Source: Flavobacteriaceae bacterium
GTDB lineage: Bacteria > Bacteroidota > Bacteroidia > Flavobacteriales > Flavobacteriaceae
Assembly (NCBI GenBank): GCA_013215095.1
Contig: JABSPM010000063.1
Location: 1 to 64,000 of the forward strand
Direction: 5' to 3'
DNA: 64,000 nt
The notes below the pieces were generated by a model. That model ran no database searches, had not been told where the DNA came from, and saw nothing but the letters and a program-made list of their open reading frames with translations. A program made the position numbers and the translations under genes. Within the stretch, counting starts at the first letter, position 1, and every line of letters starts with the position of its first letter. Shown here in pieces: positions 16,500 to 18,873 of the stretch.

Positions 16500-16961
16500 C
16501 TATTCTTCTTCGTTAGAAGCTTCAACTGGTGCAGCAGCTTTTGCACCACCTCTTCTACTTCTACGCGTAGATTTTTTCTTTTTATCTCCTGCGTTATAGA
16601 TTTCGTTGTAATCTACCAATTCAATCATAGCCATTTCAGCGTTATCTCCCAAACGATTACCTAGTCTGATAATTCTAGTATAACCTCCTGGACGATCACC
16701 AACTTTTGGAGCAACATCTCTAAATAATTCAGTAACTGCATATTTTTGTCGTAATTTACTAAATACAATACGTCTGTTGTGTGTTGTATCTGATTTTGAC
16801 TTTGTTACTAATGGCTCCACAAATTGTTTTAAAGCTTTTGCTTTTGCTAAGGTTGTATTAATACGTTTGTGCTCAATTAATGAACATGCCATATTAGCCA
16901 ACATCGCTTTTCTGTGCGCTGTTTTTCTTCCTAAATGATTTACTTTTTTTCCGTGTCTCAT
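16500..16961 (-). CDS. rplQ: 50S ribosomal protein L17 (bL17)
   Basis: The 153-residue protein starts with [20 protein letters not shown], the L17 core that binds 23S rRNA near the tunnel exit. The core (about 1-120) includes [17 protein letters not shown] and [20 protein letters not shown] tail of about 30 residues ([19 protein letters not shown], then Glu-rich) is typical of Bacteroidota. It is the last gene of the operon, 63 bases after rpoA, and a terminator follows. Confidence 0.98.
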
Positions 16962-17024: not shown

Positions 17025-18017
17025 TTAGTCTTTATCTAATTTATATTTACTCAAATCCATACCGAAGTTAAGACCTTTAACACTTACTAATTCTTCTAAT
17101 TCTGTTAAAGATTTTTTACCAAAGTTACGGAACTTCATTAAGTCATTTTTGTTGAATGATACTAAGTCACCTAATGTATCAACTTCTGCAGCTTTCAAAC
17201 AGTTAAGTGCACGAACAGAAAGATCCATGTCAATCAACTTTGTTTTTAATAGCTGTCTCATGTGAAGTGATTCTTCATCATAAGTTTCTGTCTGAGCAAT
17301 CTCATCCGCTTCTAATGTAATACGCTCGTCAGAGAATAACATGAAGTGGTGAATTAATATCTTTGCAGCTTCTGTTAAGGCATCCTGAGGGTTAATCGAA
17401 CCATCTGTTAAGATTTCAAAAACTAACTTTTCATAGTCTGTTTTTTGCTCTACACGATAGTTTTCAACACTATACTTAACATTTTTAATTGGGGTGTAAA
17501 TTGAATCTGTAAAAATTGTTCCAATTGGAGCTGTTGCTTTTTTATTTTCTTCAGCAGGAACATAACCTCTTCCTTTTTCGATGGTAATTTCCATATTAAT
17601 ATTCACCTTTGGATCTAAGTTACAGATTACTAAATCGGAATTTAAAACTTGGAATCCTGAGATATATTTTTGAAAATCACCAGCAGTAATTTGCTCTTGT
17701 CCAGAGATTGATATTGAAACTGACTCGTTATCAATTTCTTCGATTTGACGTTTAAAACGTACTTGTTTTAAGTTTAAAATAATTTCTGTCACATCTTCTA
17801 CTACTCCTGCAATTGTAGAGAATTCATGTTCTACACCTTCAATTTTAACAGATGTAATCGCAAATCCTTCTAGGGATGATAGTAGCACACGTCTAAGAGC
17901 GTTACCTACCGTTAATCCGTATCCAGGTTCTAAAGGTCTAAACTCGAATTTACCTTCAGAATCTGTAGAATCTATCATAATTACCTTGTCAGGTTTTTGG
18001 AAATTTAAAATTGCCAT
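17025..18017 (-). CDS. rpoA: DNA-directed RNA polymerase alpha subunit
   Basis: The 330-residue subunit dimerises to seed RNA polymerase assembly, and its C-terminal domain contacts UP elements and activators. The N-terminal domain shows [20 protein letters not shown], the dimer and beta-contact region. The C-terminal domain (about 250-330) carries [19 protein letters not shown] and [16 protein letters not shown], the helix-hairpin-helix DNA-binding part. It lies 97 bases after rpsD, and that spacer can fold (see 18018-18114). The start at 18017 ([15 protein letters not shown]) is standard for the family. Confidence 0.98.
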
Positions 18018-18114: not shown

Positions 18115-18720
18115 TTATTTAGAATATAATTCAACGATATATTGTTCGTTGATTTTTTCTGGAATTTGAATTCTAGCTGGTACAGACACATATGTCCCTT
18201 CCTTAGTATCATTGTTCCAGGTAATCCACTCAAATACATTACTTGAGTTTGCCAAGGAATTATTGATAGCTTCTAAGGATTTCGATTTCTCTCTTACTGC
18301 TACAACATCACCAGCTTTCAATTGGTAAGAAGGAATGTTAACGATATTTCCGTTTACGGTAATGTGTCTATGAGACACTAACTGTCGAGCTCCGCTACGA
18401 GAAGGTGAAACACCCATTCTATAAACTACATTGTCCAATCTAGATTCACATAATTGTAACAATACCTCACCAGTAATTCCTGATGCAGCGGTTGCTTTTT
18501 TAAATAGATTTCTAAATTGACGCTCTAATATACCGTAAGTGTATTTTGCTTTTTGCTTTTCTTGCAACTGAATCGCGTATTCAGATTTTTTTCCACGTCG
18601 TCGATTGTTTCCGTGTTGTCCTGGAGGATAATTTCTTTTTTCAAAAGATTTATCTTCTCCGAAGATAGCTTCACCGAATTTACGTGCAATTTTAGTTTTT
18701 GGACCAGTATATCTTGCCAT
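18115..18720 (-). CDS. rpsD: 30S ribosomal protein S4 (uS4)
   Basis: The 201-residue protein binds 16S rRNA early in assembly and in many bacteria also represses its own operon. The start [20 protein letters not shown] and the S4 RNA-binding domain ([32 protein letters not shown]) are clear. It has no N-terminal zinc-binding Cys set, so it is the zinc-free form. The gene is preceded by a 201-base spacer with its own -7 box, hairpin and possible pseudoknot. This suggests that S4 production is set separately from the upstream genes. Confidence 0.98.
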
Positions 18721-18734
18721 TTCTAATTGTTTGT

Positions 18735-18797
18735 GAGAGTAGTTATGAATTCAGGTCTTTTTATAATCCTTCGATAACTGTTAACCTCTCGTGGTTA
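18735..18797 (-). promoter_or_regulatory. Candidate S4-type mRNA leader with pseudoknot upstream of rpsD
   Basis: On the minus strand a small hairpin TAACC (18797-18793) with GGTTA (18786-18782) exposes GAGAG (18790-18786). This can pair with CTCTC (18739-18735), 14 bases before the rpsD ATG. Between them AGTTAT (18779-18774) pairs with ATAACT (18746-18741), with AGG and CCT inside. The nesting makes a pseudoknot close to the start codon, as in the known E. coli S4 leader. The fold is drawn by eye and is an inference. I recall that an S4 leader motif has been proposed for Bacteroidia, but cannot check the match. Confidence 0.45.
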
Positions 18798-18814
18798 TAC
18801 TTATTTATTATAAA

Positions 18815-18855
18815 ACTGAAACGTCCTTTTAAGCATATAAAAGGTACGTTTCAGT
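18815..18855 (-). terminator. Terminator-like hairpin between rpsK and rpsD
   Basis: ACTGAAACGT (18855-18846) pairs with ACGTTTCAGT (18824-18815); CCTTTT and AAAAGG continue the stem with a single bulged base, and four T follow. It lies inside the operon, 67 bases after the rpsK stop and just downstream of a -7 box, so it may act as terminator or attenuator. Confidence 0.75.
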
Positions 18856-18865
18856 AAATTTTTTG

Positions 18866-18873
18866 CAAATATA
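18866..18873 (-). promoter_or_regulatory. Possible internal promoter (-7 box) upstream of rpsD
   Basis: The minus strand reads TATATTTG, a full match to TAnnTTTG, in the gap between rpsK and rpsD. No TTTG at -33 is seen. A start site here would begin the RNA a few bases before the hairpin at 18855-18815. Confidence 0.4.

Follow-up and report, generated by a model that had tools for sequence, protein, structure and literature searches.

The folded RNA that precedes rpsD in this Flavobacteriaceae DNA (the window, a stretch of 64,000 nucleotides) very probably belongs to a catalogued family of predicted S4 leaders, and comparison with relatives indicates that the catalogued hairpin is enclosed by a further helix. 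From the open reading frames and their translations, the gene order on the minus strand is rpsM, rpsK, a 201-base gap (18921-18721), rpsD, rpoA and rplQ, where rpsM, rpsK, rpoA and rplQ are what we take these genes to be from their translations. The rpsD gene (18115-18720) is the presumed regulated gene and its product, ribosomal protein S4, the presumed ligand; its best named match in the protein search is from a Flavobacteriaceae bacterium (95% identity), and an S4 protein was matched in 191 of 199 genomes of the family. It is directly followed by rpoA (17025-18017), which is presumed to be co-regulated, and then by rplQ (16500-16961), the final ribosomal gene in the run, both on the minus strand. 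Past rplQ, the terminator scan lists a terminator-like hairpin with a T-run (16473-16444), the probable end of the ribosomal operon. The gap has the length given in the first-pass annotation, and the short sequences named there (the box, the hairpin, GAGAG, AGTTAT, ATAACT and CTCTC) all lie where they had been placed.

From the Rfam search, it is clear that the inner hairpin of the gap, P2 (18779-18741, minus strand), matches RF03141, the S4-Flavobacteria ribosomal protein leader, over model positions 1-33 with 42.2 bits (gathering cut-off 35.2 bits; E 4.4e-5, computed over the whole window). This is the sole Rfam match at gathering level within the 64,000 nucleotides; a mir-722 match was dismissed as chance (19.6 bits versus a cut-off of 81). 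The site adjoins rpsD, rpoA and rplQ on their upstream side and on the same strand. The outer stem of P2 (18779-18774 with 18746-18741, AGTTAT with ATAACT) is exactly the inner pair that the first-pass annotation had drawn, and in the comparison with Rfam models that it called for, this above-threshold match supports its proposal of an S4 leader inside the ribosomal operon. Within the hairpin, the conserved core consists of a bulged C (18773), a pair 18772/18747, a short stem (18770-18768 with 18755-18753) and AAUU (18751-18748); A18771 stands opposite G18752 in the Rfam register and is paired with U18748 instead in the single-sequence fold.

RF03141 agrees in name, lineage and genes with the Flavobacteria S4 motif of Eckert and Weinberg 2020 (PMC7247131), whose text presents it as a likely candidate, predicted upstream of rpsD, rpoA and rplQ. 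That text assigns the S4 ligand by analogy with other S4 leaders and describes a hairpin that does not meaningfully resemble rRNA or published S4 leaders; the word 'pseudoknot' is absent from the main text of the paper. The locus is a further copy of this known predicted leader, and the main claim made for it stands without being new.

Outside P2, the arms GAGAG (18790-18786) and CTCTC (18739-18735) form the second helix, P1, which encloses P2 as a nested outer helix and lies beyond the 33-position Rfam model. The two helices are separated by an internal loop, of variable length in relatives, with GTTAAC (18785-18780) on its 5' strand and a single A (18740) on its 3' strand. From these arms the first-pass annotation had inferred a pseudoknot like that of E. 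coli, which spans the start codon. Since GAGAG and CTCTC flank the AGTTAT/ATAACT stem on its two sides, one helix is nested in the other and the pseudoknot is rejected; the structure ends 14 nt before the AUG, and no pseudoknot is needed for the leader. The pairing itself is real, as the relatives carry compensatory changes in it. Their arms vary with complementarity kept (AAGAG/CTCTT, GGGAG/CTCCC, GATAGG/CCTATC, GAAGTGT/ACACTTC, AAGGTAGA/TCTACCTT and others), and two loci of one genus outside the order (L309 and L312) have GCGGGC/GCCCGC versus GTGGGC/GCCCAT, so that a compensatory change separates two close relatives. Between lineages, P1 thus changes while the core AGGA..CCU[U/G]AAUU and the distance to the AUG are near-constant.

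For these comparisons, upstream regions of rpsD were collected by protein search (80 named loci, and 30 loci from the 199 family genomes) and by RNA search, and 80 further stretches were picked by hand, 23 from genomes missed by Rfam and most of the others from Rfam-positive ones, so that the sample is uneven. After removal of duplicates and of L111 (cut to 52 nt), 211 distinct regions remained. Of these, 171 are counted as having entered without an RNA search, but six of the 171 (L196-L201) were placed from RNA hit coordinates, which leaves 165 obtained through the protein. The core is present in 211 of 211 distinct family regions of this uneven sample.

Three tests bear on the helices. In an alignment-free test, the 5' flank of P2 was matched with its own or with other 3' flanks, the P1 flanks being testable in 210 of the 211 regions. 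The longest stacks summed to 1243, compared with a mean of 1009.6 (sd 12.4, maximum 1049) in 2000 permutations, a statistic that ignores the relatedness of the regions, and the mean duplex energy of the P1 flanks was -7.8 kcal/mol for own versus -4.0 kcal/mol for other partners. The difference persists in the 122 regions with rare P1 types (6.12 for own versus 4.90).

We have also checked the pairings in a structure-blind way, with a MAFFT alignment of the 211 regions, changes mapped on a tree and 4095 column pairs compared. The top six pairs by compensatory branches were four of P2 (18778/18742 with 15, 18775/18745 with 8, 18776/18744 with 7 and 18779/18741 with 6) and two of P1 (18790/18735 with 8, and 18789/18737, off by one, with 6); MAFFT placed P1 partly out of register, which left some P1 column pairs off by one. 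The null maxima were 5 to 9 in 40 replicates, so that 18778/18742 alone exceeds the null by itself, and the best P1 pair (8 branches) was equalled or exceeded by three of the 40. All top six pairs fall in P1 or P2, which further supports both helices. One P2 pair passed the G-test, whose harsher null is heavy-tailed (maximum 181.9).

The third test used leaders aligned by our first, smaller covariance model, R1 (built from 9 leaders that had been selected because their loops were equally long); of 100 chosen sources 99 matched and one (L146) did not, and the alignment is one fitted to the structure. Over P1 and P2 together, 98.6% of cells were paired (79.6% in shuffles, at most 60.0% with slid partners) and 288 were doubly changed (59.6 in shuffles, at most 56 with slid partners). 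For P1, 98.8% of cells were paired and all 5 pairs were changed on both sides; in P2, 7 of 7 outer pairs were changed on both sides, and three of the inner four pairs were invariant and hence uninformative. The compensatory changes whose absence the first-pass annotation had named as grounds for giving up its proposal were therefore present in both of its pairs, GAGAG/CTCTC and AGTTAT/ATAACT. On the three comparative tests together, we regard P1 as real, judged from sequence comparison. It may already be drawn in Fig. 4a or the supplements of PMC7247131; our additions to the known predicted leader are P1, a variant core, a promoter dichotomy, a recurrent hairpin between box and leader, and a structure that works out without a pseudoknot.

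The variant core came to light in genomes that the Rfam model misses. RF03141 was matched in 156 of the 199 family genomes (149 over the cut-off); none of the 14 control genomes gave a match. Among the 43 family genomes with no match, 8 also had no rpsD match, and in the 23 examined of the 35 having rpsD the leader was present in every case. Most of these 23 have the core CUA[G/A]AGGAU..CCUUAAUUUAG; cores of the form CUA[G/A]AGGAU..UUUAG score below the RF03141 cut-off. With a relaxed Rfam threshold (E up to 1), 20 of the 23 gave 4 matches below the cut-off and 16 without any match. With annotation in view, a second model, R2, built from the 99 leaders and including P1 and both core types, recovers all 23 (E <= 1.2e-5), 8 of which are among its own 99 sources. 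This recovery was counted on fetched loci; the count at whole-genome scale is that of R1, which at 158 of 199 versus 156 of 199 is hardly better than Rfam.

Beyond Flavobacteriaceae, the leader was absent from 30 loci of 14 other Flavobacteriales families, and in 29 of these the rpsK-rpsD gap is 10-42 nt (one was not measured), from which it follows that rpsD can do without the leader. One further family of the order has it (L021, G038). In other orders of the class it was found in 2 of 30 loci (L273 and L274), whose Rfam scores also narrowly pass the cut-off. When 295 genomes of the class were scanned with R1, 16 gave hits, 8 from the window's family and 8 from three families of other orders, and all 8 hits outside the order precede an rpsD-like gene. 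The presence in these other orders is patchy (L303, L306-L309 and L312-L314, in three families).

In 205 of the 211 regions, AAUU and the AUG are 26-31 nt apart, whether the gap is short or long. The gap of the window is a long one, and contains TATATTTG (18873-18866, minus strand), the -7 box of a probable internal promoter with no clear -33 box by eye. The first-pass annotation was right about the sequence of this box, which is weak evidence by itself, since about 8% of shuffled versions of the window's gap contain TAnnTTTG. It gains weight from the relatives, because 64 of 67 gaps of at least 160 nt (window included) have such a box, compared with 0 of 125 gaps of at most 112 nt; in all, it is found in 65 of 87 distinct gaps longer than 112 nt, and in 9.6% of shuffled long gaps. 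Since the box occurs in long gaps only and the leader in both kinds, the leader is independent of that promoter. A probable internal promoter thus precedes the leader in some lineages and is absent in others, with the leader kept.

Between the box and the leader lies the terminator-like hairpin ACTGAAACGT..ACGTTTCAGT, followed by TTT (18855-18815, minus strand). It folds with -21.2 kcal/mol (z -8.4), far beyond chance, and the terminator scan does not list it. In 60 of the 65 box-bearing gaps the box lies 104-116 nt before the ATG; in the other five (the window, L133, L034, L067 and L085) it lies 145-168 nt before it, and all five have a hairpin between box and leader. These hairpins are of three unrelated sequences (window and L133; L034; L067 and L085), with 0, 0, 5, 24 and 1 of 200 shuffles folding as well. 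Matches to the DNA of the window's hairpin block at E <= 0.001 were seen in 40 of 397 family genomes, namely its own, G106 (the genome of L133/L321, from another genus; E 8.1e-15), which is the only clear match, and 38 weaker ones, of which the one inspected (L322, G760) lies in an unrelated place and without the hairpin; the exact hairpin pattern occurs once in the own genome. The stable fold and the TTT that the first-pass annotation had noted are thus confirmed, and the hairpin is rejected as a part of the conserved leader, its sequence being lineage-specific. That hairpins have been placed between box and leader more than once counts for an extra, lineage-specific layer of control.

Other repeats were seen in the gaps of relatives. 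Just before the internal -7 box, a conserved inverted repeat AATTAATATCA..TGATATTAATTTTTT occurs for example in L010, L013 and L014; its loose form is in 67 of 212 distinct gaps, 55 of them with the box next, and has 97 matches in 237 kb of upstream coding DNA, and its strict pattern is in 4 of 40 genomes, two of these at the rpsK-rpsD locus. This repeat, not seen in the window's gap, is a candidate rpsM-rpsK terminator or operator. Right past the rpsK stop, seven loci (L032, L058, L062, L076, L104, L124 and L171) have a short hairpin CTGAA..TTCAG, perhaps a weak terminator, with a possible relative in the window, the hairpin ACTGAAACG..CGTTTCAGT.

Directly 5' of P1 is the flank AGTATAACCAC (18801-18791, minus strand), in which AGTAT is common among relatives (116 of 211 regions). 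TATACT accompanies it in 114 of these 116 regions and is found in 27 of the 95 regions without AGTAT. The idea that AAGUAU of the flank pairs with rpsD codons 4-5 was tested and rejected, as own pairs scored no better than permuted ones within groups (506 versus 506.1 with AGTAT; 410 versus 407.4 without, a score reached by 617 of 2000 permutations), and for the same reason the link between AGTAT and TATACT seems to reflect clade history. When the 169 regions used were taken together, the stack score was 916 versus 898.4, with 1 of 2000 permutations as high and the energy not higher, an excess to which we attach little importance. Nor was there support, when tested across relatives, for a pairing between the flank and the bases immediately before the AUG.

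Taken together, the element, both of its helices, the near-fixed distance to the AUG and the presence with or without a -7 box are what the comparison establishes at the sequence level. We consider it likely that the two-helix hairpin P1 + P2 is a cis-acting autoregulatory S4 leader on the rpsD-rpoA-rplQ message. Free S4 would bind the conserved core (AGGA, CCU and AAUU) and stabilize the fold of both helices at the upstream border of the site where the 30S subunit lands, lowering translation of rpsD and, through coupling, that of rpoA and rplQ. P1 would act as a sequence-tolerant clamp, which would explain why its sequence varies while its pairing stays. Between the two-helix element and the rpsD start, which has no SD sequence, lie 14 nt, and according to the text of PMC9976891, the rpsD of F. 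johnsoniae is naturally without an SD and ribosomes of the class fail to recognise SD sequences; the same text describes the use of an rpsD reporter in F. johnsoniae, a laboratory strain. The scan gave no terminator-like site between leader and rpsD, an interval (18734-18721) that is short and A-rich by eye, so that translation control fits better than attenuation; together with the near-fixed AUG distance and the lack of an SD in the F. johnsoniae gene, this favours binding of S4 to the core. Blocking by competition and blocking by entrapment would both be compatible with such a mechanism.

The ligand is the point at which the strongest rival enters: the leader may be real and regulate the operon, with uS11, bL17, the alpha subunit or no ribosomal protein at all in the place of S4. 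The authors of the motif stress in their text that guesses of the ligand are uncertain for multi-gene operons, and the printed S4 assignment rests on S4 leaders of other lineages (PMC7247131). On the other hand, in the family regions examined, as in the eight hits from other orders, the leader stands directly before rpsD, and S4 represses through leaders in both E. coli and B. subtilis, as described in PMC10931766, which makes another ligand unlikely. Our literature search, with most subscription journals outside its coverage, returned no binding, footprint or reporter result for the leader.

The remaining alternatives concern the gap itself. The hairpin at 18855-18815, very stable and with its TTT just past the -7 box, could be a terminator or a stabilizing 5' hairpin that sets, in this lineage, the amount of message extending into rpsD, the leader being a second layer or a switch, and the hairpins of unrelated sequence in all five far-box gaps speak for this. 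However, a hairpin of this kind would hardly fit into the 60 gaps with a nearer box, no box is present in the 125 short gaps, the leader stands in all of these gaps, and the hairpin is both missing from the terminator scan and clearly matched in G106 only, so that we find attenuation or 5'-end control quite improbable. The frequency of the box in gaps of at least 160 nt might also mean that the operon is split there, with the leader as a processing or stability site between the rpsM-rpsK and rpsD-rpoA-rplQ messages and no protein ligand; this is very improbable, since the near-fixed AUG distance and the conserved bulged core point to control of the rpsD start. Chance pairing in an AT-rich spacer is hardly credible. 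The leader (18790-18735) does fold as the first-pass annotation had drawn it, with an energy no better than that of its shuffles (-6.7 versus a mean of -6.94, z 0.10); the single sequence could therefore be chance, but complementarity and conservation across relatives could not.

Returning to S4 as the ligand, we lean slightly towards a broader reading, in which the S4-Flavobacteria motif contributes only the inner half of a regulator with two helices. P1 would be a clamp that is free to vary in sequence and stands at a near-fixed distance from a start codon lacking an SD, and S4 in Bacteroidota would repress translation by locking a structure at the upstream 30S edge instead of masking an SD; to this come a second core type that scores under the Rfam threshold and a scattered occurrence of the leader in other orders. 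The leader would then bear on how a repressor protein can block initiation in a class whose ribosomes are SD-blind (PMC9976891). P1 and the other additions would complete a predicted riboregulator whose operon also encodes the alpha subunit of RNA polymerase.

In E. coli, the alpha operon, which includes rpsD, rpoA and rplQ, is likewise under the control of S4. Its leader, as described in PMC10931766, forms a pseudoknot with the rpsM ribosome binding site and acts by entrapment, in contrast to the nested helices before rpsD seen here, which lie after rpsK and not at rpsM, with no pseudoknot over the ribosome binding site. The B. subtilis rpsD leader is closer in that it too is a leader of rpsD, has no pseudoknot in the description of PMC10931766 and controls translation; it differs in that the Flavobacteria motif has, in the text of PMC7247131, no meaningful similarity to published S4 leaders. 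S4 leaders of the B. subtilis or Fusobacteria type are marked by an rRNA-like GUAA in its structural context; in the Rfam search of the window, no leader model besides RF03141 matched at gathering level. Terminator-controlled leaders differ again, as the scan listed no terminator between the leader and rpsD. The closest likeness is with RF03141 itself, which occupies the same site before rpsD-rpoA-rplQ and has the same hairpin and core, but whose 33-position model covers P2 only, with P1 and the 5' flank of the window lying outside it.
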